Positions 1,409-45,471 of a stretch of 64,000 nucleotides of DNA are shown here, one piece after another. The stretch comes from Sorghum bicolor (Eukaryota > Streptophyta > Magnoliopsida > Poales > Poaceae): positions 56,587,695 through 56,651,694 of the forward strand of contig NC_012872.2 of NCBI RefSeq assembly GCF_000003195.3, given 5' to 3'. Each line of letters begins with the position of its first letter. Within the stretch, counting starts at the first letter, position 1. The notes beneath the pieces were generated by a model. The model was not told the DNA's origin, ran no database searches, and saw only the letters and a list, made by a program, of their open reading frames with translations. Position numbers and translations under genes: made by a program.

Positions 1409-1757
1409 TACGTAGTTTCACTCAGTGCAACTCGTTTATTGTATTCACTCTCTAGACAAGAAACAAACTATTGGGACGTCCGTTTCCTCTCGCATAGCAA
1501 CATCTTTATTGACGCGCGCGATTATAAAACCTTATCGGCCTTGTTGGCGAATTTGCGCCACACGTACGTTTTTGTGTGGTGCATCTTTTTCCACAAGCCA
1601 ACCGTACGTGCCCGCCAAGAAACCATGCATAGACATCAAACTGCAGATAAAAAAAGAACTTAAAGAAGTAACAAAAAAACATGTGATGCCAACGGAGCGC
1701 ACCAATCACTGGCCGTGGCCGGCGACACGCTCGCCCGTGCGTTGCTTACCACTACTA

Positions 1758-1765
1758 CTTATATC
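1758..1765 (+). promoter_or_regulatory. TATA box of CYP72A copy 1
   Basis: CTTATATC lies about 105 bp before the ATG. The same ACTTATAT core is found at comparable positions before copy 2 (23063-23072) and copy 3 (58768-58775). About 350 bp of upstream sequence is recognisably shared by all three copies, including the CTCTAGACAAGAAACAAA block. Confidence 0.55.
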
Positions 1766-1864
1766 GCGCTCGCTCGCTCTCGTCTCCCTCACTAATAAGC
1801 ACACACACAGTGCACGATTGTGGACTTGTGGTTGCCACACAGCACACAACTTGAAAGCAGAGCG

Positions 1865-4357
1865 ATGGACGACGACGTTGCAGCAGCTGCGCCGCCATCG
1901 CCATGGAGCCTTCTCCAGGGGCTCCTCGCCCTGCTCATCGTGTGGGGAGCCTACCGTGCCGCGCAGACATTCTGGCTGCGGCCGCGGCGGCTCGACCGGG
2001 CGCTCCGGGCTCAGGGGCTCACCGGCACGGAGTACTGCTTCCCCGCCGGCGACCTGAAGGAGAACGCCAGGCTCAACGACGAGGCGCGGTCGAGGCCCAT
2101 GCCGCCGTGCCACGACGTTGTTCCCCGCGTGATGCCGCATCTCTTCAGCACTATCAAGGAGCACGGTACGTCCGAGGTCTTTGTCGTGTTTCTCTACGTC
2201 CATCGAGAATTCGTTGAATGTTTGTTTCTGAACCGACGTGAACACTGAGGTTGACGTCGCTTGACTAGTGTTGTGAATTATTGGCCACCCGACAGACATG
2301 TATGTTGACATATGGCAAGTTTGAATTCTTCCCTTGGGCTCCCCAGTCGTCGGACCTATGATATATATTTAATTTGTTTCATGCTATAATTAAATTCGTC
2401 ACATTTGTGAAACAATATTCTTCTGCTAATATGATTTCAGTTATCTGTTTTTTTTAAAGTCCTATGATATATTTTTGTCTGTTTCATTTGCAAGTTTATT
2501 GTCCCACTTATACAAACTCGGTTATAGTAGGTGAAGATATTTTTTTTACATCAGTGTGTATAACGTTCTAATGAATTTGTGTTAATAATAATTGTCCATA
2601 ATTTATAACATTCTTTACGTACCTGCCAAGCCCTTTGTTTAAGTAAACGATTTCAGTCTTCAGATAGTCCCTGTCATGCTCAGTTCCCTAAATTTCTCCA
2701 TTGCTACAAAATTGAAAGTTCCCTAAATATCAAAGATCGAACTGAAAATTTTGTGGCTTTATCGTGGGCACAAACGCTGAACTGCAGGGAACATTTGTGT
2801 CACCTGGTTCGGACCAATTCCCAGGGTGGTCATTACGGAGGCAGAGTTAGTCAGAGACATCCTATCAAACAAGTTTGGTCACTTTGAGAAGTTCACAAAC
2901 AAGCGTCTGGGGAAATTGCTCGCCCTTGGACTTGCGAGTTACGATGGTGAGAAATGGGCAAAACACAGAAGGATCCTGAACCCCGCATTCCATCTTGAAA
3001 AGCTCAAGGTTATATCTAACTTCCTTCATACATCCAAATAATCAGCTTCAATTCTGCATGGCCTCTCAAGCAAATAGATGTGTGCGCTAATTACTAAATT
3101 ATTTTTGCAGCGCATGCTGCCGGAGTTCTCGACGTGCTGTACCGAGCTTATAGATCGTTGGGAGAACAAGATCGCTGGTTCTGACGGATCATATGAACTG
3201 GATATCTGGCCGGAGTTTCAGAACCTCACAGGAGACGTGATCTCCCGCACAGCATTCGGCAGCAGCTTCATGGAAGGGCGAAGGATCTTCCAACTTCAGG
3301 GCGAGCAAGCAGAGCGGCTAATCAAGGCCTTCCAATATATGTACATCCCAGGCTTCATGTAAGAACTTTATGATCTGTCACATGGTATAGTAACTCTAGT
3401 ACATTAAAGGTCATCACATTCACATGTGTGCGCTCATGCCGATATAATATAATTATATATGCAGATTCTTCCCGACACAGAACAATCGGAGGATGAAAGA
3501 AATCAACAGAGAAATTGAAGGGACTCTAAGGGGCATGATTGAGAAGAGGGAGCGCGCAATCGAGAACGGTGAAACCAGCGGCAACGACTTGCTCGGCTTG
3601 CTGCTGCAGTCGAACATGGATAGCGGGAAAGGCAGCCTGAGAATGAGCACCGAGGACGTGATTGAGGAGTGCAAGCTCTTCTACTTCGCAGGGATGGAAA
3701 CCACGTCGGTGTTGCTCACGTGGACGCTCGTCATTCTAGGCATGCACCCTGAGTGGCAGGACCGCGCGAGGGAGGAGGTCCTCAGCGTGTTCGGTAGGGA
3801 CAAGCAGCCCAATTTTGATGGACTAGGTCGACTCAAAACGGCAAGTGTTTCTTTATTACAATACCATGTATACATGTTTGCTCCAAGCCTATATTACCTG
3901 CTAACATTGTCTATACCTAAATGATATCCAGGTGACGATGATACTATATGAGGTGCTCAGGTTGTACCCACCGGCAGTGACCCTAAACCGAAGAACATTC
4001 AAAGACATGCAGATTGGAGGCATCACATACCCTGCAGGGGTAATCCTTGAGCTTCCCATAATCGCCGTCCACCACAATCCTCACATCTGGGGGAAGGACG
4101 CACATGAGTTCAAGCCAGAGAGGTTCGCTGAGGGGATCTCAAAGGCGACCAAGGACCAACCTGCGTTCTTCCCGTTCGGATGGGGGCCGCGGATCTGCAT
4201 TGGGCAGAACTTTGCGTTGCTTGAGGCCAAGATAGCCTTGAGCATGATCCTCCAACGCTTTGAATTCCAACTGTCGCCTTCATACACGCATGCACCCTAC
4301 ACGGTCATTACGCTGCATCCTCAGCATGGTGCGCCAATTATATTCAAGAAGATCTGA
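1865..4357 (+). CDS. Cytochrome P450, CYP72A type, copy 1 (5 exons)
   Basis: Exons are 1865-2165, 2788-3008, 3111-3358, 3465-3840 and 3932-4357, giving 523 aa, the usual length for the family. The product should be an ER-anchored haem-thiolate monooxygenase. An N-terminal hydrophobic anchor (about residues 13-32, [17 protein letters not shown]) is followed by the basic WLRPRRL hinge. The C-helix [13 protein letters not shown], the I-helix AGMETT (from residue 332), the K-helix ExxR (E389-R392), FKPERF and the haem loop [10 protein letters not shown] (Cys about 471) are all present. Four of five acceptors and donors are canonical; intron 4 starts with GC. CYP72A members oxidise gibberellins, triterpenoids, terpenoids or xenobiotics, so the substrate cannot be given. 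The start at 1865 aligns with copies 2 and 3; an in-frame ATG at 1820 lies in less conserved leader sequence. Confidence 0.93.
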
Positions 4358-4687
4358 TCGTCTTATATGACATTGTCGATCGTTACCAATAAGTATGTCA
4401 CAGTGAAAAAATAATAGTTTTGTATGAGTACAGTAATATTAGAGAGTTTAATTTTGTGTATCTGAATTTTGAGGTGGAACTAAACGGCAGGAGATATATT
4501 GCTTGTTGTAAACCTCCAGGTCAAGATACAGTCCAACCAATATGTGCACATGCTCTAATAAAAATCACTATGTGCATATAAGGTAAACAGTAGTAAACGT
4601 AGGATTGAAACTAGCTTAGCTGTCCTTTTCTAATGTTTCAATCAGCTTGTTCATCAAATTCTTTCAGCGTTCAAATTCATATCAACG
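4358..4687 (+). other. 3' flank of CYP72A copy 1
   Basis: This segment resembles the 3' flank of copy 2 (25844-26145), including GTATGTCACAGTG and CTAGCTTAGCTGTCC. It probably holds the 3' UTR. The similarity stops at ATATCAACG (4681-4687), where element C begins. Confidence 0.6.

Positions 4688-9983: not shown

Positions 9984-10030
<47 letters not shown>
9982..10030. repeat. (AT)n microsatellite
   Basis: An almost uninterrupted run of about 24 AT dinucleotides lies in AT-rich intergenic sequence about 210 bp left of element A. Confidence 0.95.
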
Positions 10031-10034
<4 letters not shown>

Positions 10035-10241
10035 CAAACTTTTAGAAATATGAAATTAAGTAATGAAAATGCTATGTTTGACCATGTAAATGCAAGAGAT
10101 ATGTATTCCTTATTACAAACTTCATGCATGTACTCCCTTTGAATTAACAAACCATAACACCGACAATTCCATATAGTAAATGTTTAATTAACAAACCATA
10201 TAGCAATAACATAACACCGACAATTCCCTTTGAATTATATC

Positions 10242-10976
10242 TGTTGGGGAGAGGCTCTCCGCACTCCCCAGCAGTACGGTGAATCGTGAACCTTCTCACT
10301 CGGTGCCGTGAGAGGTTTGAGCTCCAACGGACAGTAGGCTCGACAGTAGGTGAAAATAGTGAATGCTCTCTCCCTCTTTTATTAATGTCGGCGTGCTCCT
10401 TTTATAGGGCTCGGAAACCGACCTAAGACAGTTACAGATATGCCCCGTGACGGTGGGGGAATATTCCAGCATATTCGTACATCACAGTCTGCTGATCCTA
10501 AGTTACTTGCGTAATTTCACACTACAGGCTCTCCACGCGCTCCTCGTTCGGGGCTTCAGACTGTCGAACGCTCGTATCCTTCGCCCGGCAGTCGATCCTT
10601 CGACTCTTCCGCGTCGAAGGTTCCCTGAGCCGGCTGAGTCGGAGGTTGCTCGGGTTGGCCACCTCGGAGGCCGCTCGGCTCAGATGCGCCGGAGGTTTAT
10701 CTCCTCCGCCGCATCTCCCAAACATCCTTCGCCATAGGAAAGCTCGAAGGTTCCCCCCTTCTTCGCCCGCAGATCTCCGCCGGTGCTCCAGTCCCTGCAT
10801 ATGCTCAACATAGCGAGAGTCATGTCAACGTTAGCCTTTCTCAGGGTCCTCCGCATGCATCTGCACGGAGGTTTCCTGGGTGGAGGATAGCCTTAGACGC
10901 TACCAGGTCGGAGGTTACTCGGGTGAAGGATAACCTCAGACGCTACCAGGGGGAAGGATGCGGCCATTTCCCAACA
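10242..10976 (-). repeat. 3' LTR of element A
   Basis: It is 735 bp with TGTTGGGG...CCCAACA ends. It differs from the other LTR at three positions seen by eye: TTCGGGG/TCCGGGG, CCCAAAC/CCCGAAC and AGGGGGAAG/AGGGTGAAG. The TATA box reads CCCTATAAAAGG on the - strand near 10396-10407. An 14-nt polypurine tract (complement GTTCCCCCCTTTTT) abuts it at 10977. Confidence 0.93.
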
Positions 10977-11324
10977 GTTCCCCCCTTTTTGGGCTAATGG
11001 CACTCTTGCGGTCCATGTGCTCAAAAACATGCCACGTTGCGGAGGCTGCGAGCATGGTTGCTGCCTTCCCCCCTGGTGCGCAGGATGTGTTTGTTAGCGT
11101 CTTCGAAAAAATATTTCTTTTACCTAGCCATTTGTTTTGACAGGATCCTTCGATCATTGTTGTTTCTGATAGGCTGTTATCCTTCGCGCGTTAGAGTGCG
11201 AAGGGTATTATAGCCGTTGGAGTTAGCCGTTTGGGCTGGTGAATCGCAACGGTCAGGCCGAGTCCTCCGCTTTTAGCCGTTGGGCGCGGGGAATCGCAAC
11301 GGCCGCGCGGTCGCAGGCCCCCCC

Positions 11325-11334
11325 CTATAAAAAG
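11325..11334 (+). promoter_or_regulatory. TATA box of the antisense gene, element A
   Basis: CTATAAAAAG follows a C-run and precedes the conserved leader CTCACCCCTGCCGCTCATTT. The box lies inside the element, about 350 bp from its 3' LTR, and points antisense to the retrotransposon. B and C have equivalent boxes. Confidence 0.7.
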
Positions 11335-11466
11335 GGATGCTGGGGGGGCTCTGAGCTCTCACCCCTGCCGCTCATTTCCTGCACATTTTCCTTCGCCACA
11401 TTTTGCTTTCTGAGTTGCTCGCACCGCTCGCGTGTGTTATTGCTGTGTTTAGTCGGAGGGTCTACG

Positions 11467-14400
11467 GTGGCTCATCTTCCTCCGCCGCGTCCTTCGAGGT
11501 CAGATTTTTCTGGTCCTTTGCGAGATTTTCTTAGTGTAAGGTCTGGGGGTTGGCTGCGGAGGTTTGAGGAGTGGATGCTTGAGGTGGCAGCAGCTCAAGA
11601 CCTGGAGGAGACGTTGTCCGACGTCGAAGCTTCTGTTGGTGATCTGATCAGCGCGAAGGAGTTTGAGGAGATGGCTGCAATTACCTTTGAGTTTGGGGAG
11701 TCGACAGTGAGGACGGAGGATATCGCTGACATGGTTGAAGCGCGGTTTTTCAAGGATGGCCGCGCGAAGGCTCCTCCTGCGGGTCAGACGGGGCCTGCGC
11801 CTGAAGAGGGTTATGCTGTTGTATTCAGGGACTTTTTTACCTGCGGACTTCGGATGCCTCCGTACCATTTCCTTCGCGAGGTGATGGAGAGCTTCAACAT
11901 TGAGCTACAGCATTTCAGCCCCAATGGGATACTGACCCTTAGCAAGTTTTCATGGGCATGTGAATCCTACGGAGCCATGCCCCACATTGACACTTTTTGC
12001 TCATATTTCGAACTTCAGCGCCAGCCTAAGAAGGTGAGGGATGCCGAAGGTGTTGAGTGCATTGCGCAGTTTGGAAGCTGCACGTTCATGCCGCGCCGCA
12101 CAATGCCTGGGCCAAGGTGCGAGATCTCCTACTGCCAAAAGGGCAAGTGGGAGAAGGATTGGATGAGAGCCTGGTTCTACGTGAAGACCCCCGCTGCGTC
12201 GAGGACTTTGGATGATGGTAGCGTTGATAAGGTTTACCCTTACGCATCCTTGATGAAGGATTTGAAGCCTGTCTCGAAGGTTGATCCTTCGAAACCGGTG
12301 TCGGAGGAGCAGCTTGGGGCGCGATTGGCCTGCGACAAGGCCTTTGCGCTGGCTTGCCGATACTCCGGAGGTCGGGACCTGGTCGAGGAGATGGTTGCAG
12401 CCGACTACTGGCCCCTTGGCCGCAGGACTGACGAGTTCACCATTGAAATGGTGCAAGTACCGGTCTTTGGTCCTCCGGAGGGGTTGCCGTTTCCTCGATT
12501 TGGCGCGGGTTTGCCGGAGGATGAGACGAAGGAATCTTTTCTTGACCGCGTGGAGGTTTATGCTCGGAGGATCGTTGGAAAGATCTCAGAGAAGGAATAC
12601 CTCCAACGGAAGTCCGCACTTGGGACTATGCCGCGTTTCAATCGCGTTTTTGAAGAGTTGGGGATCGAGTATGAGGATTATGCCGTTCCTCCGGAGGTTC
12701 TGCTTGGCCTGGAGAATAAGAAGGATTCATCCAAGGCCGTTGCCGCGGCGGAGGCTAAGAAAAGAAAGGGTTGTGGTGCTGTTAAACAACTTGCGAAGAA
12801 GCGCAAGGCGGAGGTTGTGCTGGAGACTCCTTTGGAGTCTTCCTCTGCCCGCTCTTCTGCTGCCGAGTCTAACTCGGTGGCTTCTGTTCCTGCGGAGGTT
12901 GCTCCTGCTGGTGGAGTTCCTGAGGTTGAAGCCTCACGCGCGGTCTCTTCTGTACGCGCGCCTTTCGGGTCCCTTCTTGGGGAGGAGTCTTCCGACGCGG
13001 AGGCCCCTGAGGCGAGTCCTGCGCGGGAGGCAAATCCTGCGGTGGCTGAGAGTCCTGCGCGGGAGGTTTTGGCTGGAGGAGGATCTCCGCCGAAGGATGG
13101 GCAAGAGGAATCCAGTGATGAGGCAGAGTCTGTCTCTGTTCGGAGGATAAAGAGGGTGGAGGCTCCTCCGCGTGCGGCTGGAGATGGTATAAACTCGTTG
13201 TACATGGGTAAAGATTTTATTTTTATTGATTCTTGTTTTTCTGCGTTTTTTGCTTGACTTGGTCTCATTTTTTTTTATTTTTCAGAGGATGTTTTTGCTG
13301 GGCTGGCTACCGCGGAGGAGTTAGCTAAAGGCGCCAGCGTTGCGCAGGAAGGACTTGCTGTTCCTCCGCGGCGTGAGCCCGCGCCTTCTGCGTTGGCAAG
13401 TAGGCCTTCGCCTGCTGATGTTATTGGTCCCGGTGGGTTTCTTCTTTTTTGTTCAACTAATTGGTTTGTTTTTTGGCATTTTATTCTAAGGTTTGTTTTT
13501 GTTTTGCGCAGGTGCTTTTGATCCTTCGATCACAGGTTGGACTGATGCCTTGCGCGAGGTTCATTCCTTGGTCGGAGGTTCGTTGTCTGGCCTCCGCCAC
13601 AGGTTTTTTGTTTCTTACGATGTTTTTTCTTAATTGTTTTTGCTTTACAGATCGTTTTCGTCAGAAGCTCCGCGGCATGGACTTTGACACGCTCCTTCGC
13701 GTGCAATATGAGCACCATAGCCTTGTACGTTTGCGATGTGTTATATTTTCCTTCGCCGTTTTTCGCTCGGAGGTTGGTTGTAATTCTTATTTTTTGAGCA
13801 GGGTCATCACATGGCTGCCGCCTTGGAGGAGCGCTGCTCCCGGGAGGTTATTTGCCGGGACGAGGCTATTGGTGCTCTGAAGAAGGAGAACGAGACCTTG
13901 GAGGTTGAGAAGGCTCGCCTGACGGAGGAGGTTAAGGAGTTTTCTTCCGTCAGGCGGGAAATTGAGTCCCTGAGAAAGGAAAGGGATGACTACAAAGCTG
14001 GGTCGGAGGCCTTGAAGAAGGATAAAGAAGATGCCGAAGCTTCGGCGGCTGTCCTCCGCACGAGTGTCACTGAGGCGGGGAGAGTTAGGGACTTGGCCCT
14101 GCAGCGAGCCGAGAAGGCGGAGGACATTGCTGAACGCCTTCGCAAAGAGCTTGACGCTGAGCGGACGTCTGCGGCTGAGCTGCAGACTCGCATACAGAAG
14201 GCGGAAGCGGAGGCTGCAGCTATTGTTGGGCTCTATGCCGACTCGCTGGCGAAGTTTGGGGGTAGCACCTCTGCTCCTCCGCCCGGCGGCGACGTTGGGG
14301 CTGCCCTCGCATGGCTGAAGTCTCATATCTGCATGCTCCCTGATTTTGTCGGGGGCGCTGTTGATTTTGGGGCTTTGGCCGCGGTTAGCTCCTTTGCTAA

Positions 14401-14844
14401 GCTGCTGCGCCGCGGAGGTTGCTCCCACGCGGAGGATGTTGCCAAGGAGGAGTTTGCCACGGCGGAGGATGTTGGCGAGGGCACCTCTAGCCTGCGCAAA
14501 TCTGTCCGGAACTTCATCAGTTCGTTCTGGATTAGGTTTGGGCGGGCTGAGGCGAAGAAGATGGCGGAGGCTCGTCGCGCTGAGGTATTTTTGATTTGGT
14601 TTTTTCTTTTTGTATTTTGTTTTGCTGCTTTGCAATGTTATTTAAGATGGGTATTTTGTAGGAGATTGCGAAGAAGAAGGCTAAGATTGACAAGGCCGGT
14701 CCTTCGCGTCCACCAAGCGAGGCGCATCCTCCGACCCAGGCTGAAGCGGAGGCTCGTGATGCTGGTGCCAAAGCTCCAGAGGGGTCTGCTGCCAGGGTTC
14801 CAGAGCAGCCCGAGACTTCTGCTCCTCCTCCGCCTCAGGTGTGA
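11467..14844 (+). CDS. Antisense six-exon gene of element A (Transposase_28-type protein)
   Basis: Exons are 11467-13207, 13286-13432, 13512-13577, 13651-13724, 13802-14584 and 14662-14844, giving a continuous 997-aa frame. Introns are 73-79 bp, all GT-AG. Residues about 110-190 carry the domain I recognise as Pfam Transposase_28 ('putative gypsy type transposon': FRDFFTCGLRMPPYHFLREV, then LTLSKFSWACES). This is followed by WMRAWFYV, a bipartite lysine-rich nuclear-signal-like segment near residue 430, an acidic Ser/Glu-rich low-complexity region, and in exon 5 a coiled coil (about residues 680-800). The function is unknown despite the Pfam name; no DDE triad was seen. The conserved N-terminus begins at GTG GCT; the only upstream in-frame ATG (11239) precedes the TATA box. 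Alternatives are a start at the Met codon near 11574 or a non-AUG start. Confidence 0.8.
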
Positions 14845-14996
14845 GGCTTTTTAGTTTTTAGGTTTTTCTTAGTCTTTTTTGCGTCCAAGCATGTGACGCT
14901 TTTTTGTAAGTAAGGCCGGAGGTTTTGCTTAATTTGTAAAGACTGTTGAAAATGTAATATATTGAGTTGTTTTCAGATAAGCCTTTGTTTTACACT

Positions 14997-15040
14997 TTGA
15001 TCCTGCGCAGGTCTCTGGCGGAGGACCTGCGCAGGATCAA
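14997..15040. repeat. Perfect 17-bp hairpin between the antisense ORFs, element A
   Basis: TTGATCCTGCGCAGGTC (14997-15013) and its exact reverse complement (15024-15040) enclose a 10-nt loop. It lies about 150 bp after the stop of the six-exon gene. The stem is present in B and, mutated, in C. Confidence 0.9.
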
Positions 15041-15731
15041 TACATTACTCCCCTTTCAATTTTTTACAAAGGGATTTATGTTTCTGGCGAATTGTGGGAG
15101 TACTGGCGAATTGCCTTCCCTAACATGAGGGTGGTGGATATGTTTGAGTTTGTTGGATATGACCTAAATGACGAACGATCTGAATTCGTCCGGTCGCTTG
15201 CGCGCCGAGGTTCATGGCCTCCGGCTTAGGTGGTTGTTTTTGCTTTATTTTTCGTTTATCGTAGGTTATGTGTGTATTTCTTTGACAAGGTTTGTTGCTT
15301 TTACGCAGCCGCCATATCCTATCCTTCGCATCTTTGGTGAGAAGGATAGGGTACGCTGGGTGTCGGATGTTTCCGAGGATTTGGCTGAGCCTTTTCTCCA
15401 TGGATATCCGGAGGTTCGAAAGCTTCGTAATACGTTTTGGTTTTATCCTTCGTAATAAGTTTTGGTTTTGAAGTTTCTCTCTTTTTTTGTACAGGTTGTG
15501 AGGTCTGGTCCAGAGGATGTTCTTCCTTCGAACTTTGTCGAAGGAAGCTACGTTACCCCTGTGACGTTCAAGCGTGGAGATCTGTATGCGAGGGGTTACC
15601 TGATTGATTGGTGGCGCCATAAGTATCCTACGCGTAGTATTGATGACTTAGTTGATTTTCTTGTTCGTGATTACTGCGATGAGCTTAGGCTTATTCCAGA
15701 TTCGTATGTAAAAATTGTGCGAGGGTCTTAG
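15035..15731 (+). CDS. Second antisense ORF of element A (exons a, b, c)
   Basis: Three protein-like blocks lie on the + strand. Block a (15035-15229) contains GIYVSGELWEYWRIAFPN and ends RGSWPPA followed by TAG. Block b (15309-15413, 105 nt) and block c (15495-15731, 237 nt) are joined by a GT-AG intron in phase 0 and encode PPYPILRIFGEKDRVRW through to IVRGS and a stop. Block lengths b and c are identical in B. The role of block a is unresolved: its in-frame TAG sits directly before a GTGGTT donor in A and B alike. Block a may be reached by splicing from CAG|GTGTGA at the end of the six-exon gene, giving a longer protein. No known domain was recognised. Splicing is inferred from sequence only. 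Confidence 0.5.
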
Positions 15732-17182
15732 AACCTTCGACTCTTGACGGTCGAAGGATGTTTTTCGTTTTTGGTTGTAAACTTTTGTTGTTTATAGTTA
15801 ATAAAGATCAGACATTTTGACCATTGCTTTGGCCATGTTCTTCGCACCTTTTAGCTTTATTTTTATTTCAACCTTCGCGCTATAACGTTTATACATTGCA
15901 ACGTCACGGTGGTGTTGATCCTAAGGATCTTTGTGTTGCTGTGGCCTGCTTGTGCTTGATGCTCGATGTTGCGAAGGTGGTGTTGATTTTTTCTTGCGCG
16001 GAGGATCGCCGCTTCTTGGCCTTAGAACCTTTGACTTTATTGGTGCGAAGGAGCCTCCGCTGAATTGTGCTACTTTTTCCCTTTGCTCGACTCCCGTGGA
16101 GTGTTGTCGAGGAGAACCTTCGGGTATCTGAGTCGGAGGTTCTGAAGGGACGTTACGAGACTTCGTGCGATACCCTTCAGAGACCTCTGAGTCTGATTTC
16201 CATTATTTCTGTTGTGGCTGTACACGACTTTGTAGTCGATGTTCATCACAACGCCGCAGTTCTATTATTACGAAGCTTCGTGCAATACAAACTTTTGTTG
16301 CTGTTGTGAGGCTAACTCCTGCTTCCATGGTGGCCTATGATTTTTGCTTTTTGACTGCTAGGTTTGCACTCGATGCTCGGGTCTTTGTATACTGATCCTG
16401 ATTGAGGGTGGGGGCAAGGTGAGCCTGGTTTTATAGGCTTTCATGCATTTATTTTATGTACTCTGTTAGGTTAAAATTTATTATCGGGTTATTGATGGTT
16501 GTTGTGGTAGTTGGTTTTGCTGTACCTGACTGAGAGTTATTGTAGTTTTGTTTTATTTTCACACTTTGTTTGTTGGGGGTCTGCTTAGAGTAGCAGGATA
16601 CCTTCGACCTTATTTAGGTGAAGGTTATGTGAGTTTTGTTGAGGTCTGTCTTGTGAATGTTAAACCTCCGCTGCCTTTTGGCAAAAATAATATAGTTCCT
16701 GATGCCTGATTGTCCTCAGGTCTTTGTCAGGTCTGAAGGTTTTGTTCCTTCTGGCCATGTTGTGATGCCTGAGGAGGACAGGACTTTTTCACTTTTTGGC
16801 CATGCTATCCTTGCTGCCCGGCTCTTGGCTAGGTCTTTTGCTAAGGATTTGGTGTTTTTTCACCTTTGAGGACGTTCCGAGCTTTCTTAGCTTTTGGATG
16901 AATGCTGCGGAGGGTCCTTGTGATCACGTGATGATTTGTCGAATGCTACAGCCTCGTTGATGGCTGTTTTTCGACTTTTGGGCTTTGGTTCTGGGGTGGA
17001 TTCCTCTTTATATCTCAGAGGTTTTTACATAGGTTCTGCCTCGTTAAAAACCTCACCTCCTGGTAGGAGTACCCCTGTGAGGAAAAGAGTGCAGACCTTG
17101 GAATGCGAAAAAGTAGAGAAAAAGAAAACAAGCGTATTTAGGGATGTGGATGCCGTCGCTTATTTTGCGGGGTCATCCTTAC
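15732..17182. other. Non-coding spacer of element A between pol and antisense ORFs
   Basis: No open frame with conserved sequence is present. The spacer matches the B spacer (39416-41087) in inverted orientation and is dense in CCTTCG, CGAAGG and CGGAGG words. It contains TTCGACTCTTGACGGTCGAA, a short inverted repeat at 15737-15756, also partly present in B. Confidence 0.6.
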
Positions 17183-19739
17183 ACTCAAATGTAAAATCTA
17201 CGTAGATTGTCGACGTTCCACGTGTGGGTGGAGGTTCTACCTTCGAGGTCTTTCAGGTAGAAGGATCCTGACCTTCCCGCTTGTATTGCTGTATAAGGTC
17301 CTTCCCACTTGGGTTGCATTTTACCAGCGTTTGGGTGATCTCCCTTTTTCCTGAGTACCAGGTCCCCATCTTGTATGTCTTTCCGTACTACCTTGCGGTC
17401 TCTCCATTTCTTGGTTTCTTGTTGATACATGGTAATGTTCTCCACCGCCTCAAGTCTTATTGATTCTAAGGTTTCCTTGCAGTAGTCTTCATCTTCAGCC
17501 AACTGCTGCTTCATGGAACGCAGGCTTTGGTGTTTGATTTCTTCGGGCAACATTGCCTCTTCCCCATACAAGAGCTTGAATGGAGTAAACCCAGTTGTTC
17601 TTGAAACTGTTGTGTTATGTGACCACACAACTCTGGGTAGCTCGTCAACCCATTTCCCCTTTCGCAGGTTGAGTAAGGTCTTGGAGATTGCAGAGAATAT
17701 TATTCTGTTTGCTCTCTCCACGGCCCCATTTGACTCTGGGTGGTAGACGGACGCGAAAGCAATTTTGGTTCCTATGTGATGGCAGAATTCCTTGAACCTG
17801 TCTGAATCAAACTGCTTTCCGTTGTCAACTGTGAGAAGTCTTGGAACTCCGAATCTACAGACTATGTTCTGCCAGAAAAATTTCCTGATCGTTTCAGAGG
17901 TTATGGTTGCCAGTGGCTTAGCTTCGATCCATCTTGTGAAGTATTCGATGGCCACGACGGCAAACTTGTTTCCCCCCTGTGCAGTTGGCATCGGTCCTAC
18001 CAGGTCCATTCCCCATCTCTGCAACGGCCATGATGCTGATATAAGCTGAGTTGGTGCTGAAGGTCCTGACTGAATTGGTGAGAAGGTTTGGCAGGCTTTG
18101 CATGTCTTCACTATTTCTTCAGCATCTTTGATGTGAGTTGGCCAGTAGAAGCCTTGTCTTAATGCTTTAGCAGACAATGCGCGAGGTCCAATGTGAGACC
18201 CGCACATTCCAGAGTGTATCTCTTGCAGGAGCTCTCTGCCCTCGCTTTGTGATATGCATCTCAGCAAAGGTTGGACTACGGCTTTCTTGTACAGGATCCC
18301 GTCAATGGTGGTGTAATTCCTTGCTCTTGCCTCCATCCTCTTGGCTATTGCTTCGTCATCTGCAGCTGTCTTGCCTTTGAGGCAATCAGCTATTGCCTGC
18401 CTCCAATCTTCGCTTTCTGTCAGCAGGACTGAGCGAAAAGCTTTTGGCAACGATTCGGTTGCGGGTGTTGCAATAATCTGGTGGAAGGTTCCTTCTGGCA
18501 AGGGGGCGTTGTTGGCTGCTGCTTTCGCTAGCTCGTCTGCCTCGTAGTTCTCGGCTCTTGGAATGTACTGCAGAGTGAATCCCTTGAACCTTCTCTCCAG
18601 GCCTCTTACGACGGCCAGATATCTTGCCAGCTCCGGGTTGTGTGCTAGGTATTCCTTCTCCACTTGCCCTGCCACCACCTGGGAGTCTGTTTTGATGAGT
18701 AGGGTTTTTGCTCCCGAAGCCTTAGCTTTGTTCAGCCCGAGGATGAGACCTTCATACTCAGCTATGTTGTTTGTTGCTTTGAATTCGAGTCGTACAACAA
18801 ACTTTAGTTTGAGTCCAGATGGTGCGATTAGAACGGCTGCTGCTCCTGCTCCTGCTTGACCCCAGGCACCATCTGTATACAACGTCCACGGTTGATCGAC
18901 TACCTTCTCCTCCTCTTTGTTCGAAGGTGTCCAATCTGCCATGAAGTCAGCCAGGGCTTGAGATTTGATGGAGGTTCTGGGGACATAGGTGATGTCAAAC
19001 TGTGACAGTTCGGCCGCCCATTTTCCTATACGTCCGGAAGCCTCTTTGTTCCTAAGGATATCACCCAATGGCTGCGAAGTGGGTACTTTAATCTCATGGC
19101 TTTGGAAGTAATGCTTGAGCTTACTTGATGCACACAAGACCGCGTACGCGATTTTTTCTATCTCCGTGTAGTTCAACTTTGCTCCTGACAGAGCTTCGGA
19201 TACGTAGTAAACGGGCCTTTGCACCGTTCCCTTGCTGTCGCTTGTCTCGTGCACCAGGACACCACTGACAGCGTGCTCGGAGGCAGCCACATACAGTAGT
19301 AGTGGGGTGTCTGGCTCAAGCACTGTTACCACCAGGTTGGTTGCAATGTAATTCTTGAGCTGCCTGAAGGCCTCTGATTGTTCCGGACCCCATTCTGTTT
19401 TACCTTCTCCTCTCAGCACTTTGAAGAATGGAAGGCTCCGTTCTGCGGATCTTGAAATGAATCTGTTGAGGGCTGCTATTCGGCCAGTCAGCCTTTGCAC
19501 TTCTTTCTTGCTTGAAGGTTCCGCCATTGACATGATTGCCTTTGTCTTGTTTGGGTTTGCTTTGATTCCTTCAGGACTGATAATATATCCCAGCATTTTC
19601 CCTTTGCTGACCCCGAATACGCATTTCTCCGGGTTGAGTTTCAGCCCGGCGGTTCTGAGGTTGACAAAGGTTTCCTGTAGGTCCTTGATATGATCTTCTT
19701 TGCGCTTGCTCATGACGACAACGTCGTCAACGTAGGCTA
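17183..19739 (-). pseudogene. 5'-truncated Tat-lineage pol of element A
   Basis: The frame starts abruptly at AYVDDVVV, the RT catalytic motif, and runs without a stop to the C-terminus DNLRRFYI. It contains the RT thumb, the first RNase H ([16 protein letters not shown]), the second 'archaeal-type' RNase H typical of Tat elements ([17 protein letters not shown], then [11 protein letters not shown]), the integrase HHCC zinc finger ([10 protein letters not shown] to CKACQTF), and the D-D-E core ([27 protein letters not shown]). Everything before YVDD is absent: about 1,030 residues compared with element B. The remaining sequence is nearly identical to B. Confidence 0.9.
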
Positions 19740-19797
19740 GTAGAGCGCAAGGCTCTTAACCTTGTGGTCGTGGGTTCGAGCCCCACGGTGGGCGCCA
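19740..19797 (+). other. tRNA-Lys(CUU)-derived 58-nt segment at the primer site of element A
   Basis: The + strand reads as tRNA-Lys positions 19 to 76: the 3' part of the D arm (TAGAGC), the anticodon stem CAAGG/CCTTG with loop CTCTTAA (anticodon CTT), the variable loop, the T arm GTGGG-TTCGAGC-CCCAC, the acceptor strand GGTGGGC, the discriminator G and CCA. Element B has only the normal 18-nt primer-binding site (33732-33749) complementary to the same tRNA 3' end. CCA is not encoded in plant nuclear tRNA genes, so the source was a mature tRNA copied by reverse transcriptase. The 5' third of the tRNA is missing, so it is not a tRNA gene. Confidence 0.93.
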
Positions 19798-19798
19798 A

Positions 19799-20533
19799 TG
19801 TTGGGGAGAGGCTCTCCGCACTCCCCAGCAGTACGGTGAATCGTGAACCTTCTCACTCGGTGCCGTGAGAGGTTTGAGCTCCAACGGACAGTAGGCTCGA
19901 CAGTAGGTGAAAATAGTGAATGCTCTCTCCCTCTTTTATTAATGTCGGCGTGCTCCTTTTATAGGGCTCGGAAACCGACCTAAGACAGTTACAGATATGC
20001 CCCGTGACGGTGGGGGAATATTCCAGCATATTCGTACATCACAGTCTGCTGATCCTAAGTTACTTGCGTAATTTCACACTACAGGCTCTCCACGCGCTCC
20101 TCGTCCGGGGCTTCAGACTGTCGAACGCTCGTATCCTTCGCCCGGCAGTCGATCCTTCGACTCTTCCGCGTCGAAGGTTCCCTGAGCCGGCTGAGTCGGA
20201 GGTTGCTCGGGTTGGCCACCTCGGAGGCCGCTCGGCTCAGATGCGCCGGAGGTTTATCTCCTCCGCCGCATCTCCCGAACATCCTTCGCCATAGGAAAGC
20301 TCGAAGGTTCCCCCCTTCTTCGCCCGCAGATCTCCGCCGGTGCTCCAGTCCCTGCATATGCTCAACATAGCGAGAGTCATGTCAACGTTAGCCTTTCTCA
20401 GGGTCCTCCGCATGCATCTGCACGGAGGTTTCCTGGGTGGAGGATAGCCTTAGACGCTACCAGGTCGGAGGTTACTCGGGTGAAGGATAACCTCAGACGC
20501 TACCAGGGTGAAGGATGCGGCCATTTCCCAACA
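19799..20533 (-). repeat. 5' LTR of element A
   Basis: It is 735 bp, the same length as its partner. On the - strand it contains the TATA box CCCTATAAAAGG near 19953-19964. One spacer base (19798) separates it from the CCA end of the tRNA-derived segment. The outer end is followed by the ATATC duplication. Confidence 0.93.
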
Positions 20534-20538
20534 ATATC

Positions 20539-22742: not shown

Positions 22743-23159
22743 TAGATTCGATCATACGTACTTGCACACGTAAGTCACTAGTTTCTTTCAGTGCAAACCC
22801 GTCACTCTCTAGACAAGAAACAAAGCATATATAGGGACGAATGTTTCCTCTCTTAGTCAACATCTTTACTTTTCACACCCCACGATTATATGGTAAAACC
22901 TGGTTGGCCTTGTTGACGAATCTGCGCCACAGGACACTTTGACACATTGCAACCAGCAATTTGTAGCTAGCTTCGGGCCGGTGTTTGTTGTGGTGCATCT
23001 TATTGCACACAAGTCAACCGTACGTGCCCGCCAAGAAAACAATACGATGCCTACCGGCTACTACTTATATAACGCGCCCCCGCTCTCTCACGAAGCACAC
23101 ACTGCACAACTGTGGCCTTGTGGTTGTCACACAGCAAATAACTCGAAAGGAAATAAACG

Positions 23160-25843
23160 ATGGACGGCGACGTTGTAGCAGCTGCAGCAGCTTTGCCATC
23201 ACCGTGGAGCTTGCTCCAGGGGCTCCTTGCCCTGCTGATCGCGTGGGGCAGCTACCAGGCCGCGGAGACATTCTGGCTGCGGCCCCGGCGGCTCAACCGG
23301 GCGCTCCGGGCACAGGGGCTCAGCGGCACTGAGTACCTCTTCCCAGCCGGCGACCTCAAGGAGAATAACAGGCTCAACGACGAGGCACGATCGAGGTGTA
23401 TGCCGTTGTCCCATGACATAGTTCCCCGTGTGATGCCGCATCTCTTCAACACAGTTAAGGAGCACGGTATGTCGAAAGTAATTAAACACACGTTCCTTTC
23501 TTTCTTCTTGCCCACGCTGTCCTCTCCCTCTCTCGCTAAACTCACTCGCGTTGCGCACTCCTCTACCTTACATACCCACCTCTTACCCCACCCTTGCATT
23601 GCGCAAACCCATCTTTCCCTAAACCTAGGTTGCAAGCGACCACTCTACAGATAGGTCTAGGCATTAGGTATTACCGAACCATGGTTTGGTACTTCAGTTC
23701 CCACACAAATTCGGTTCCTCAAAAAATAGGCATTGGTCAGTTTATTCCAAAATTTGGTACACAATAAAATTGGTTTTGGTATTTTTGGTTTGGTTTCAGT
23801 ATTTATTGAAAACTACCGAACTGAACACAGAGACTCGTAATAGCAGGTATAAAAGCTAAATTTGCAAGAATTTCAAAGAGAATAATAGTGCAAAATACAT
23901 ACACATAAAAGTTCATAAGACTATAAGAGTAGAGTACTACAAATACATAATATAATAGTCTTTAATAATACAATCAATAATTTAACAATATTCAAACTCA
24001 GCATATTTCGCGTAGTTTGGCCAGTCCAGGCATGACTTGATTCGGACTGTTTTGGACTTGTATCACCCCCTCTAGATTTGATTTGTCACCATCTTCACGT
24101 TTAAGTAAACAAATTCACATAGTCCTTTGTAATACTCATTCCCTAAATTTGTCCATTCCAATAAACTGGAAAATTACCTAAGTTTTAAAGATTTTTTTTG
24201 AGAATACTAAGTTTTAAAGATTGAATTGAAAGTTTTGTAGACTTAACGGCACATATGCAAACGTTGAACTGCAGGCAACATTTCTATCACCTGGGTCGGA
24301 CCAATTCCTAAGGTGATAATCACGGAGGCAGAGTTAATAAGGGACGTCCTATTAAACAAGTCTGGCCACTTCAAGAAGGTCATCACGAACAAGCGTCTTA
24401 TAAAAATGCTCGCCCTTGGGATTGCGAGTCACGACGGTGAGAAATGGGCAAAACACAGAAGGATCCTAAAACCCGCATTCCATCAAGAAAAGCTCAAGGT
24501 TCTCTGACTTCCTTCACACAAGAAATCAGCCTTAGTTACAATATGCACAGCCTCAAGCATATAGATATGTGTGCTTACTAAATTTATTTTTTAGCGCATG
24601 CTGCCGGCGTTCTCGACGTGCTCTACCGAGCTTATAGATCGCTGGGAGAAAAAACTCGCTGGTTCTGACGGATCATATGAACTGGATATCTGGCCGGAGT
24701 TTCAGAACCTCACCGGAGACGTGATCTCCCGAACGGCATTTGGCAGCAGCTTCATGGAAGGGCGAAGGATCTTCCAACTTCAGGGCGAGCAAGCAGAGCG
24801 GCTATTCAAGGCCTTCCAGTATATGTACATTCCAGGCTTCATGTAAGAACTTTCTGATCTGTCACATGGTACAGTAATTCTAGTACATATATTAAAGGTC
24901 ATCACATTCATATGTGTGTGCTCATGCCGTTATATATATGCAGCTTCTTCCCGACACAGAACAATCGGAGGATGAAAGAAATCAACAGGGAAATTGAAGG
25001 GACTCTAAGGGGCATGATCGAGAAGAGGGAGCGCGCAATCGAGAATGGCGAAACCAGCGGCAACGACTTGCTCGGCTTGCTGCTGCAGTCAAACATGGAA
25101 AGCGGGAAAGGCAACCTGAGGATGAGCACCGAGGACATGATTGAGGAGTGCAAGCTCTTCTACTTCGCGGGGATGGAAACCACGGCAGTGTTGCTCACAT
25201 GGACACTCGTCATCCTAGGCATGCACCCTGAGTGGCAGGACCGCGCGAGGGAGGAGGTCCTCAGCGTGTTCGGCAGGGACAAGCAGCCCAATTTTGATGG
25301 CCTAGGTCGACTCAAAACGGCAAGTGTTTCTTTGCAATACCATGTATATGCATGTTTGCTCCAACCATTCAACATTATATTACCTGTTAACATTGTTTGT
25401 ACCTACATGATATCCAGGTGACGATGATACTATACGAGGTGCTCAGGCTGTACCCATCGGTAGTGACCCTAAATCGAAGAGTATCCAAAGACATGCATAT
25501 TGGAGGCATCACATACCCTGCAGGGGTAATCCTCGAGCTTCCCATAATCGTCCTCCACCACAACCCTGATGTCTGGGGGAAGGACGCACATGAGTTCAAG
25601 CCAGAGAGATTCGCTGAGGGGATCTCAAAGGCGACCAAGGACCAACCAGCATTCTTCCCCTTCGGATGGGGGCCGAGGATCTGCATCGGGCAGAACTTTG
25701 CGTTGCTTGAGGCCAAGATGGCCTTGAGCATGATCCTCCAACGCTTTGAGTTCCAACTATCGCCTTCATACACGCATGCACCGTACACGGTCGCTACGCT
25801 GCATCCTCAGCATGGCGCGCCAATTATATTCAAGAAGATCTGA
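23160..25843 (+). CDS. Cytochrome P450, CYP72A type, copy 2 (5 exons)
   Basis: Exons are 23160-23466, 24275-24498, 24595-24842, 24944-25319 and 25418-25843, giving 526 aa with no premature stop. The anchor, AGMETT, EVLR, FKPERF and [10 protein letters not shown] (Cys about 474) motifs are intact, so a functional haem enzyme is possible. Several residues conserved in copies 1 and 3 differ: the C-helix reads [10 protein letters not shown] instead of [14 protein letters not shown] is WVGP, and LYPP after the ExxR helix is LYPS. Intron 1 is 808 bp and shares an inserted block rich in TTTGGT words with copy 3. Intron 4 begins with GC. Substrate unknown; relaxed or shifted function is plausible. 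Confidence 0.92.
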
Positions 25844-25930
25844 TCGTCTTGTATGACATTGTCAATCGGTCGTTATCAATGAGTATGTCACAGTGCAAAA
25901 ATAGTAGATTTGTATGAGTACAGTATTATT

Positions 25931-33053: not shown

Positions 33054-33730
33054 TGTTGGGGAAAAGCTGCATCCTTCCCCCCGGTAGCGCCGGAGGTTAT
33101 CCTTCACCTGGGGAACCTCCGACGCCTGGAACGTCGGAGGATATCCTTCGACGGGAAATGCTAATGTTGACGACTCGTCTGGTCGTGCAAAGTGTGTGCA
33201 GGGACTGAAGCACCGGCGGAGGTCCACGACTGAGGAAAGGTTGGAACCTCCGACCCTCCCGGGTCCGAGGATGGCGGGAGAACGTAGCCAGGCCAAGGAG
33301 GAACTCCCGGGATGGCCGGGTGAAGCAACCTCCGACCAGCCGGGCTGCGGAACCACCGACACCAAAGCGTCGGAGGATCCGCAACTGGGCGGAGGATCCG
33401 AGCCTCCGACCTGCTGAGGCCCCAGTCAAAGGATGAACGGAGGGTTCGCAATGTGAAATTACGCGAGTGTATTGGGGTCAGTAGACTGCGATGGAAGAAT
33501 ATGCTGGAATATTCCCCCACCGTCACGGGGCATTTATGTAAATGTCGTTGGGTCGGTTTCCGGGCCCTATATAAGGGGCGTGATGCTGCCATTAATAGTG
33601 AGAGAGCATTCATTGTATTCACCTACTGTTGAGCCCACTGTCCGTTACTGCTCAAGCCTCTCACGGCACCGAGTGAGAAGGTCCTCGATCTACTGTACTG
33701 CTGGGGCGTGCGAAAAGCACCTTCCCAACA
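33054..33730 (+). repeat. 5' LTR of element B
   Basis: 677 bp with TGTTGGGG...CCCAACA ends. The TATA box TATATAAG lies at 33568-33575. It differs from the 3' LTR by GAGGATGGCGG/GAGGATAGCGG and GGAACCACCGAC/GGAACCTCCGAC. Parts, such as GAATATGCTGGAATATTCC, are shared with the element A LTR in inverse orientation, so A and B are related subfamilies. Confidence 0.94.
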
Positions 33731-33731
33731 T

Positions 33732-33749
33732 TGGCGCCCACCGTGGGGC
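33732..33749 (+). other. Primer-binding site of element B (tRNA-Lys)
   Basis: TGGCGCCCACCGTGGGGC is the exact complement of the last 18 nt of tRNA-Lys(CUU) including CCA, one base after the LTR. This is the normal counterpart of the 58-nt segment in element A. Confidence 0.95.
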
Positions 33750-33766
33750 CCGAGGTATAACCTGCG

Positions 33767-36700
33767 ATGGCTGGAAAGAGAACAAGCACCACGAGACCTC
33801 GGGCAGAGCCCTCCAGGAGAGGGAGGCCGATGAGGGCCGTGCGAAGCGCGTACACGACCGTGGAGGGAGAAGGTTCTCAGGACGAGCAGCCAGAGAACGA
33901 GCAGCCGGAAACACGCCGAGAACCTCCTCCCGCCGCAGACCCGGCGCAACCCACTGCCGCACAAGAGCTCCAGCAACTGCAAACGCAATTGCGGAACCTT
34001 CAGCAAGAGCGAGACCGGATCGCTGCTGCCTACGCCGCCAGCCAAGAGGCAGCGGTAGCCGCGACGCAAGCAGCCGAGATCAGGCAGCAGCTTTCACTCC
34101 TGCAGGCAGAAATCCTTAGCATGCAACCTCCAGCTCAGCCGACAATTCAGCCCGCTGTTCTGAACAGCGCCGGCCCAACATTAGATGTGCAACCGATGAA
34201 CTACGGCGGCATGCCGCGGGGCACGTTGGACCTTCGTTCCCCTCTGTCCGAAGGATTGCAGACCTCGCCTTGGCCAACAACCTACAAACCAATCACGCTC
34301 CCTAAATTCAGCGGAAAGGCCGATCCGCGCCAATTCCTGATGAGTTTTGAGGCAGCCGTGGCCTCAGCTGGAGGGAACGAGACTGTGATGGCAAAATCTT
34401 TCGTGATCGCGGCCGAGGGAGATGCCTTGGCATGGTATTCGATGCTGAGGCCCGGGTCGATCTATTCGTGGGAGAACCTTCGAGACAAGATTTTAGCGAA
34501 TTTCCAGGGATTCGCAGTTGAATCACTAACCTCCACGGACCTATTCCAGTGTCGCCAGAGTCAGGGAGAGGCACTGCGGGATTACTTCCAAAGGTTCGTG
34601 CAGACCAAGGCGAGAGCACCCGGCGTGCCGGAGGAGGTTGCCATTGAAGCGGCCATCAAGGGTCTCCGCATAGGACCCTTCGCGGCTCATTTGGCCAGAG
34701 AAAAGCCAGCATCCATGCACGAGCTGTACCACGAGTTTGAGAAGTATTGCAGGTCAGACAACGATTACCGCAAAAGGTTGGAAGACCAAAACTCTCAGAA
34801 GAGGCAGAGCAATGATAGAAACTCACAGAAAAAGAACCTCAGCCAGGATGGACGCCGGCCACAGCAAGAGGCTGGTGGACAGATGATGAATATCGAGCAA
34901 CCGAAAAACGAAATGCCGGAAAATAACCGTCCACCAGCGGAAGCACGAAGCTCGGGACGCACACCCAATCAAGCCGGAAGAGGGGGTCGAAATGCGGGAT
35001 GGCAAAAAAATCAAAGTCAGCGACCACGGAAACAGTATTGTTTCTTCCATGGAGAGGAGAAGGGTCACTCCACCAGAGATTGCCCAGATGCAAAAGAAAC
35101 TCAGGAGAGGATCAAGAGCAGGTCAACTCCACAACCTCCGATACCAGTTGCTCAGCCTCGGGAAGTAAATCACACATTCCCTCAAACCTTCTACCATTCA
35201 TATGTCGGAGGTTCAAGCCAGCAGCACCCAGCTCCGCTTCAGCCCAGCGCACTAGCCTCCGCTTACTATCCCAGTTTCCTACCAGCTTGGCGCCCAGCCC
35301 AGCAAACCGCGGACCACAATCTTCCACCAAACTATGTTCCTCCACGACCTCCACATATCACGTACATCGAAACCCCGCAACCCCAGCAGTCACTACCTCC
35401 TCCCCCAAACCAGCTACAGCTACTCCAAGCCCCACCACCACCAAAAACCGAACCCCACCCTGATAATCAGATCGGCCCTCATACACCCCTGCCAACAATT
35501 GGAATGATCTTACCAATAGCTGGGGGGTCCTCAATGGAGTTCCAGACAAAGAAACAGAAGAAGGATCACCTCAGGCTCGTCAACAACGTTGCAGTTCAAG
35601 GGCCAGTGAGATGCACTGATTGGTCCAGAACCCCAATAACCTTCACCGAGGAAGATCTAAGATTGGAAAGCTACCCTCACACAGACGCCTTGGTCATAAC
35701 AACAAATGTTGCGGGTTGGGGAGTAAGCAGGATATTAGTAGATTCAGGGAGTTCCGCAGACATAATATTTGCTGGAACCTTCGACCAAATGAAGCTCAGC
35801 AGAAGCCAACTCCAACCTGCGGAGTCACCTTTGATCGGGTTCGGAGGAAAGCAGATACATGCTCTGGGAAAGGTCGCCTTGCCCGTATCCTTCGGCACAA
35901 CAGAGAACGCAAGAACAGAGTACGTCACCTTCGATGTGGTAGACTTGCACTACCCATATAATGCCATATTCGGGCGAGGATTCTTGAACAAGTTCAATGC
36001 GGCCGCTCATATGGGATACCTGTGCATGAAAATCCCGGCTCTGCACGGAGTCATAACGGTTCACGGAAGTCAAAAGGAGGCAAGGAACATAGAGAAAGCA
36101 ATCTACAAGTCCTTCCGGAACATAAACTCCGTAGACTCTACGCAGCATGAAGCTTCCCAGCCGCCAGACATGCCAAGGGGGAAAACAGACCTGGCTGATC
36201 AGGAGGAAACGAAGTGTATCCCTCTGCAGGAAGCTGTTCCAGATAAGAAGGTCACCATCTCCGCCACCCTTGGTAGAGAGGAGGAACTCGAATTGCTAGA
36301 CGTATTGCAAAAGAACCAAGATATCTTCGCTTGGAGTGCCGCTGACCTACAAGGAGTCAGCAGAGACATAATAGAGCATTCGCTGAACATCGATCCGAGA
36401 ATGAGGCCAAAGAAGCAAAGACAGAGGAAAATGTCTGAAGAAAGAACCTTAGCCGCGAAGGCAGAGGTACAAAGACTCCTGGACGCAAAGGTCATCAGAG
36501 AAGTCATATACCCGGAATGGTTGGCAAATGTGGTCTTGGTCCCCAAGAAAAATGGCAAAATGAGAATGTGCATAGACTTTACAGATCTCAACAAGGCTTG
36601 TGTCAAAGACTCCTTCCCCTTGCCAAGGATAGATACCTCTGTGGACAAAGCAGCTGGTTGTCAGAGATTCTCACTGCTGGACTGTTTCTCTGGTTACCAC

Positions 36701-41087: not shown

Positions 41088-41799
41088 CTAAGACCCTCGC
41101 ACAATTCTAACATACGAATCTGGAAAAAGCCTAAGATCATCACAGTAATCACGTACAAGGAAATCAACTAAGTCATCTATACTACGCGTAGGATACTTGT
41201 GGCGCCACCAGTCAATTAGATAACCCCTCGCGTACAAATCTCCACGCTTGAACGTCACCGGGGTAACGTAACTTCCTTCGACAAAGTTCGAAGGAAGATC
41301 TTCCAACGGAGAGGAATTCACAACCTGCGCGCAGAAAATAACTTCAAATCCAACAAAAACGAAGGATAAAACTAAAAAGCCAAACGAAGCTTTCGAACCT
41401 CCGGAAAACCTTGAAGAAAAGGCTCAGCAACATCCTCAGAAGCCTCCGCCACCCAGCGTACCCTATCTCTCTCACCAAAGATGCGAAGGATAGGATATGG
41501 CAGCTACATAAACACATCAAATCATGTCATAAAAAATATAACCAAAACCTACGATAAACGAAAAGAAAAACAAAATCATCCACCTACGCCGGAGGCCATG
41601 AACCTCGGCGCGCAAGCGACTGGATAAATCCAGATCCTTCGCCATCAATATCATATCCAACAAACTCGAACATATCCACCAATCTCATATTAGGGAAGGC
41701 AACTTGCCAATACTCCCACAATTCACCAGAAACATAAATCCCTTTGTAAAAAAACGAAAGGGGAGTAATGAAACGATCCTGCGCAGGTCCTCCGCCAGA
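41088..41799 (-). CDS. Second antisense ORF of element B (exons a, b, c)
   Basis: Blocks on the - strand are a (from the hairpin at about 41776 to TAG near 41588), b (41503-41399, 105 nt) and c (41324-41088, 237 nt). Blocks b and c match A in length, phase and splice sites. The last block ends LRLFPDSYVRIVRGS. Block a ends RGSWPPA plus TAG, just before a GTGGAT donor, as in A. No known domain was recognised. Expression and the coding role of block a are unproven. Confidence 0.5.
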
Positions 41800-41814
41800 G
41801 ACCTGCGCAGGATC
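41775..41814. repeat. Hairpin between the antisense ORFs, element B
   Basis: GATCCTGCGCAGGTC (41775-41789) and its perfect reverse complement (41800-41814) surround a 10-nt loop, in the same place as in A. Confidence 0.9.
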
Positions 41815-41969
41815 AAAGTGTAAAACAAAGGCTTATCTGAAAACAACTCAATATATTATATTTTCAACAGTCTTTACAAAATAAAACACAACCTCCGACC
41901 TTACTTACAAAAAAGCGTCACATGCTTGGACGCAAAAAAGACTAAGAAAAACCTAAAAACTAAAAAGCC

Positions 41970-45332: not shown

Positions 45333-45458
45333 CGTAAAACCTCCGACAACACTTTAGAACTAAACGCACGCGAGCAGCTCAGAGAGAAAGACGTAGCGAA
45401 GGAAGGTGTGCAGGCAATGAGCAGCAGGGGTGAGAGCTCAAAGCTCCCCAGCATCCCC

Positions 45459-45471
45459 TTTTATAGGGGGG
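45459..45471 (-). promoter_or_regulatory. Antisense TATA box, element B
   Basis: Read on the - strand: CCCCTATAAAAGGGG, followed by GAGCTCTCACCCCTGCTGCTC, the same leader as in A. It is about 130 bp before the GTG start. Confidence 0.7.

Follow-up and report, generated by a model that had tools for sequence, protein, structure and literature searches.

In retroviruses, the plus strand copies 18 nt of the primer tRNA and stops at the methylated base m1A58 (PMC13191261). The same source names Psi55, m5Um54 and ms2t6A37 as minor plus-strand stops of HIV-1, and describes in lentiviruses and spumaviruses a primer over-extension sequence that lets slightly longer ends transfer (PMC13191261). For the yeast elements Ty1 and Ty3, PMC5371799 states that tRNA sequence is not inherited. 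Here we describe a long terminal repeat (LTR) retrotransposon of Sorghum bicolor that carries 58 nt of its primer tRNA fused to its reverse transcriptase (RT) gene. The element lies in a window of 64,000 nt, the whole stretch of DNA that was analysed (contig NC_012872.2, positions 56,587,695 to 56,651,694); genome searches covered the S. bicolor assembly (709 Mb, 846 contigs). Taking all the evidence together, we consider, with a probability of roughly 85%, that the insertion arose through aberrant reverse transcription of a plant Ty3/gypsy-type element for which tRNA-Lys(CUU) was the primer.

The features of the locus are given below in window coordinates, with the evidence for each in brackets. 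The tRNA positions follow standard tRNA numbering and were assigned in this analysis; PBS denotes the primer-binding site and TSD the target site duplication.

10242 to 20533, minus strand: truncated LTR retrotransposon insertion, 10,292 bp (LTR pair 99.59% identical, TG..CA ends, TSD)
20534 to 20538, no strand: TSD ATATC on the 5' LTR side (direct reading)
19799 to 20533, minus strand: 5' LTR, 735 bp (LTR comparison)
19780 to 19797, minus strand: ordinary 18-nt PBS, A76 to G59 (exact 18 nt at 151 assembly places)
19779, minus strand: base opposite A58, a T, the correct complement (alignment to the tRNA)
19740 to 19797, minus strand: 58 nt complementary to mature tRNA-Lys(CUU), A76 to G19, the plus strand reading as the tRNA (sequence match, ARAGORN, Rfam)
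19739 to 19740, minus strand: junction between tRNA and RT, with no shared base (alignment to relatives)
17188 to 19739, minus strand: leftover pol, comprising the RT end from just before YVDD, RNase H, a second RNase-H-like domain and integrase (Pfam)
11227 to 15731, plus strand: open frames on the opposite strand, between integrase and the 3' LTR (open reading frames)
10242 to 10976, minus strand: 3' LTR, 735 bp (LTR comparison)
10237 to 10241, no strand: TSD ATATC on the 3' LTR side (direct reading)
33054 to 46518, plus strand: related full-length element with a normal PBS at 33732-33749 and one open gag-pol frame at 33761-39415, the yardstick for the deletion (alignment)

On the element strand, the PBS TGGCGCCCACCGTGGGGC adjoins the 5' LTR and is complementary to tRNA-Lys(CUU) from A76 to G59. 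The complement then runs unbroken through A58, presumably m1A58, back to G19, where it gives way to the RT gene at TAGCCTACGTTGACGAC (AYVDD), the fusion point lying in the RT codons just before YVDD. Eighteen of the 58 tRNA nucleotides are the usual PBS and the other 40 are extra tRNA sequence. The original prediction had described this fusion of CCA-ended mature tRNA to the RT active-site codons, and it is confirmed in all but its junction motif: the join reads ...GCGCTCTAC/TAGCCTACGTTGACGAC (a slash marks joins throughout) and had been slightly misread as GCTA/CGTCGACG. The tRNA is contiguous with the PBS beyond position 58 and ends in CCA, in an element with matching LTRs and a TSD, which supports the prediction that copying ran through position 58 of the primer.

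The related element at 33054-46518, flanked by AGTTG on both sides and with LTRs that differ at 2 of 677 positions without gaps, aligns with the truncated element up to exactly 19739, which corresponds to 36861. Because the alignment ends there, 3,111 bp (33750-36860) are absent from the truncated element, in agreement with the predicted loss of about 3.1 kb, and the 40 extra tRNA nucleotides stand in their place. The closest relative found at the join, on contig 7, is 99.4% identical over the adjoining 354 bp and reads ...AACATCA/TAGCC. Since this relative has ACATCA where the tRNA would continue with C, the two sides of the join have no base in common, as expected for joining to RT-region complementary DNA (cDNA) without homology. 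Strand-transfer errors are reported, judging by the title, to have caused deletions in retroviral vectors (Pulsinelli and Temin, 1991); the likeness is the large deletion.

A search of the assembly for other copies with the fused junction found none among 19 places for a 55-mer and 13 for a 26-mer, at up to 2 mismatches in each case. At this sensitivity the junction is single-copy, and nothing indicates that the deleted form has itself retrotransposed. Among the best 120 of 1207 matches to protein relatives, none of the 63 that hold a YVDD-type motif carries the fusion, and the other 57 are without the motif. Only one of those 63 (P0007) has LLA before the motif, where it is preceded by N and not by tRNA-derived residues.

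ARAGORN calls a tRNA-Lys(ctt) at 19726-19797, and the fusion stretch scores 32.2 bits against Rfam RF00005, compared with a gathering score of 29. By chance the fusion is therefore called as a complete tRNA-Lys and passes the Rfam cut-off, a trap for automatic annotation.

The source of the tRNA stretch was sought in the assembly. Its 55-nt part without CCA, with up to 2 mismatches allowed, occurs at 19 places, all exact: the window copy and 18 places that also have the 5' half of tRNA-Lys. None of these 18 encodes a CCA after the tRNA. A search with the 26-nt stretch that includes CCA, again allowing up to 2 mismatches, gave 13 places: five tRNA-Lys genes that lack CCA (ARAGORN), the window copy, copies on contigs 7 and 2, and five ordinary elements in which the bases after the PBS match a few more tRNA positions. 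The presence of CCA in the window copy, its absence from all 18 tRNA-Lys places and the RT sequence on the 5' side of the tRNA stretch identify mature tRNA as the source. No exact match to the 55-nt tRNA sequence was found in viral contigs.

The element bears the marks of regular integration. Its LTRs, each of 735 bp, differ by 3 mismatches without gaps, its termini read TGTTGGG and CCAACA on the element strand, and the 5-bp TSD is ATATC on both sides (GATAT on the element strand), all of which agrees with the prediction of an integrated cDNA; the window sequence contains no N. At a substitution rate of 1.3e-8 per site per year, the LTR differences give an insertion age of roughly 0.16 million years. 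Pfam searches of 17188-19755 and 36401-37489 recovered RVT_1 (only 148-205 of 205), RT_RNaseH, RVT_3, Integrase_H2C2 and rve. The pol order RT, RNase H, integrase, together with LTRs of the TG..CA type, the short TSD and a PBS adjoining the 5' LTR, is that of Ty3/gypsy elements. RVT_3 (294-413) lies between RT_RNaseH (148-253) and rve (577-673), and provides the extra RNase-H-like domain characteristic of the Tat-type (Tat/Ogre/Retand) lineage, to which the element may belong.

A second event was found on contig 7 (3050320-3074541), where a composite of 24.2 kb is flanked by ATCTG on both sides and its outer LTRs are 99.73% identical over 734 bp without gaps. The LTR, 98% like that of the window element, is followed by the PBS and tRNA complement as far as U35 or U36, the end point being ambiguous through a one-base overlap (A), so that the integrated tRNA complement measures 41-42 nt; it has one mismatch, at position 38. 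The tRNA is fused as A/TGTTGGG to the U5 end of an inverted LTR of another subfamily, and the extra A may be a base of an untrimmed cDNA end or a PBS base. The inverted stretch comprises a 3' internal region, pol, gag, a normal PBS and an LTR without its first 41 bp; within it a further 0.4-kb piece is turned round (3055713-3056108), and after it pol to the 3' LTR follow in direct orientation. The near-identity of the outer LTRs and the ATCTG around the whole 24.2 kb indicate that the cDNA had been assembled beforehand and entered the genome as a single unit. Different tRNA end points and different partners show that the window and contig-7 events were independent.

A third candidate, on contig 2 (70822894-70822919; L031, L042, L043), has the PBS and a tRNA-like stretch to about position 42 with two differences, and adjoins an LTR-like stretch of 541 bp; no partner LTR was found in the 17.9 kb examined. 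It is a weak case of tRNA extension and may be directly inserted strong-stop DNA. Counting this weak one, a long tRNA extension is present at 3 of the 151 exact 18-nt PBS places.

We propose that plus-strand strong-stop DNA would have copied the primer while it was still attached to the minus-strand DNA, passing m1A58, the rest of the T arm and the anticodon arm and ending at G19. That end might reflect a stop at Gm18, a possible reason, or a tRNA that was already cut in the D loop. The second strand transfer would then fail because a 40-nt tail could not pair with the PBS complement. End joining or an end-to-end jump would link the extended end to a minus-strand cDNA that was incomplete, and integrase would insert the product. 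An unpaired tail of 40 nt, or of 23-24 nt on contig 7, would hinder transfer, and this would explain why both long tRNA copies are joined to other cDNA instead of being followed by a normal leader.

A competing account of the end points, which we regard as possible with the odds somewhat against it, is that the template itself was shortened by tRNA cleavage, in the D loop between G18 and G19 for the window copy and in the anticodon loop for contig 7, leaving run-off ends. Both ends do lie in loops, G19 in the D loop and U35/U36 in the anticodon loop, and the window copy has no misincorporation at A58 or G26. Plants are described as producing tRNA fragments by cuts in the D, T and anticodon loops, with RNS enzymes (RNase T2 family) implicated (PMC8215267). 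Against cleavage, Gm18 would stop synthesis at 19 as well, and position 37, which adjoins the contig-7 end, carries in the HIV-1 primer the minor plus-strand stop ms2t6A37 (PMC13191261). Just two well-defined ends bear on the choice.

The elements resemble HIV-1 (primer tRNA-Lys3) in that tRNA is copied beyond m1A58, the minor HIV-1 stops lying in the T and anticodon loops (PMC13191261, PMC1785368). They differ from HIV-1, whose stop products are described there mostly in vitro, in being germ-line integrated plant copies with 58 and 41-42 nt of tRNA-Lys(CUU). Like Ty1 and Ty3 they are LTR retrotransposons with a tRNA primer, and Ty3 belongs to the same broad superfamily; unlike them, they can inherit tRNA, as two well-defined copies show.

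We looked for traces of the same process across the family. A pattern from the PBS to the leader start found 124 copies, and 100 listed copies were fetched with flanks, 98 of them with an exact PBS. On a tree built from the flanks without the PBS zone (690 columns scored, 100 copies), the site opposite A58 requires 41 Fitch changes and is the second most changeable column; the median over the columns is 3 and the 95th percentile 12. Trees from the LTR only and from gag only gave 42 and 45 changes, rank 2 of 689 in both. This family-wide variation was not part of the original prediction. The PBS and GATGGCTGGAA were fixed by the search pattern, and the zero changes within them therefore carry no meaning. 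The LTR end just before the PBS was free to vary, and it is quiet: the six columns that precede the PBS T have 0-2 changes apiece. A transfer of the Ty1/Ty3 type would be expected to finish at this LTR end.

The variable site consists of 0-4 bases between ...GTGGGGC (opposite G59) and CGAA. In the 97 copies used for parsing (3 of the 100 were set aside as ambiguous), the insert is absent in 18 and has one base in 52, two in 20, three in 6 and four in 1; the strings are C in 27 copies, T in 21 and 16 others. CGAA, complementary to tRNA positions 54-57, follows the insert in 82 of the 97. Copies differ at the site in 20 of 38 pairs with 1-3% flank divergence and in 1 of 5 pairs below 1%. As a cross-check, 100 of the 151 exact-PBS places were listed: 82 belong to the family set, two are the window and contig-2 copies, and the other 16 were fetched. 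All 16 show a similar short variable stretch after the PBS and a leader start; in three (L176, L182, L183) the likeness to the family leader is lost shortly afterwards, and in one (L185) the PBS is not preceded by LTR sequence. The leaders of L176 and L183 break at the same point, GATGGCTG/TAA, into different sequence.

The bases just past the 18-nt PBS are thus complementary to the T loop, as in the over-extension sequence of lentiviruses and spumaviruses; unlike in those viruses, the position opposite A58 varies, with T in 21 of the 97 copies, C in 27 and no base in 18, and a role in transfer is putative. A further difference from Ty1 and Ty3 is that the plant family has its hotspot at the PBS end and none at the U5 end. 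The hotspot opposite A58, the quiet U5 end, CGAA in 82 of 97 copies and the two integrated long copies together fit retrovirus-like transfer with a leaky m1A58 stop. Family-wide, tRNA would be copied and inherited at the second strand transfer, synthesis would often err at m1A58 or pass it but seldom continue far into the tRNA, and the hypervariability opposite A58 would mark m1A58 as a leaky, error-prone stop. This suggests that the family replicates in a retrovirus-like way, unlike yeast Ty1 and Ty3.

A different origin of the variable site is also conceivable, though we think it the less probable one: 0-4 untemplated bases could be added at transfer by RT or by host alternative end joining (alt-EJ), without reading past m1A58. 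Inserts such as GA, GG, AA, CA and GGCT mismatch the tRNA, and alt-EJ performs the second strand transfer through PBS microhomology according to a review (PMC12786077). Untemplated addition leaves out of account the tRNA complement CGAA that follows the insert in most copies, and the two well-defined long extensions show that reading past A58 occurs. Alt-EJ could be responsible for the joins as well as for the few variable bases, and misreading of m1A58 could also account for the latter.

The most changeable of the 690 columns lies in the LTR at offset -134 (about window 19933 in the 5' LTR; 55 changes in 100 copies). Here a purine-rich hypervariable stretch, with 79 different strings in 99 copies (1 of the 100 was unmatched), has its start at a distance of 28 nt from the first TATA-motif base in 87 of the 99. 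The RNA is expected to begin here, so the stretch may be a scar of the first strand transfer, or it may be a plain (GA)n microsatellite. LTR pairs are gap-free in the three elements compared (window 10242-20533, window 33054-46518 and contig 7), as would be the case if the stretch was fixed in the cDNA or if the elements are simply young.

A joint reading of these observations, which we offer tentatively and rate at slightly under even odds, is that each new copy can read its primer tRNA again beyond m1A58 as far as about position 54, with errors at the methylated base, and transfer through the CGAA over-extension. The 0-4 bases would be a heritable, genome-wide record of how that base was read, the long fusions would be failed transfers rescued by end joining and then integrated, and offset -134 would be the scar of the first transfer.

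Several points besides the untemplated-base account weigh against these interpretations. The contiguity at 19739/19740 is that of the assembly sequence, and the presence of m1A58 and Gm18 in sorghum tRNA-Lys(CUU) is presumed from tRNAs in general. The window copy shows no errors at A58 and G26, which a primer that was hypomodified or cut would explain as well as reading through modified bases. The sampled copies are those that fit the search pattern, and Fitch counts ignore recombination between copies. In 13 of the 97 copies, CGGA or CGAG variants have not been restored to the tRNA sequence, which means that copying does not always reach position 54. A 29-nt pattern for a tRNA-iMet-extended PBS, with up to 2 mismatches, matched two places, both with mismatches opposite CCA; no iMet-primed extension was found, which leaves generality beyond the tRNA-Lys(CUU) primer unsupported. 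Finally, in one HIV-1 study (PMC1785368), a primer with A58U worked like the wild type, with no extra tRNA bases in the proviruses, and features other than m1A58 are argued to stop the HIV-1 plus strand.

Capture of a tRNA gene or retropseudogene beside the PBS, or filler from post-integration repair, is very improbable: tRNA-Lys(CUU) genes are available at 18 places, but none has CCA, which contradicts gene capture as far as the assembly goes, and the tRNA piece continues the PBS in register and takes in its 18 nt, the LTRs match, the TSD is intact, and the pattern recurs at a second locus, where the end and the partner are different. An assembly chimera at 19739/19740 can hardly be credited either, for although the junction is known from assembled sequence, both LTRs and the TSD are present, there is no N, and an analogous structure exists elsewhere.

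Elsewhere in the window, a 42-bp stretch at 9987-10029 is self-complementary, matching its own reverse complement. Gene-like repeats lie at 22930-25930, 58641-61584 and 1740-4500 and are 80-89% alike; the frame at 25391-25843 contains a 13-residue stretch resembling a cytochrome P450 haem motif.

Searches of an open-access library gave no report of integrated long primer-tRNA fusions in plants. The fusion, integrated in the germ line, is evidence that plant Ty3/gypsy elements are able to turn primer tRNA into DNA, and it names tRNA-Lys(CUU) directly as the primer. It also represents a one-step route to element copies with internal deletions or inversions. From the variable site opposite m1A58, it could become possible to read tRNA modification and the fidelity of strand transfer in any genome with enough copies.

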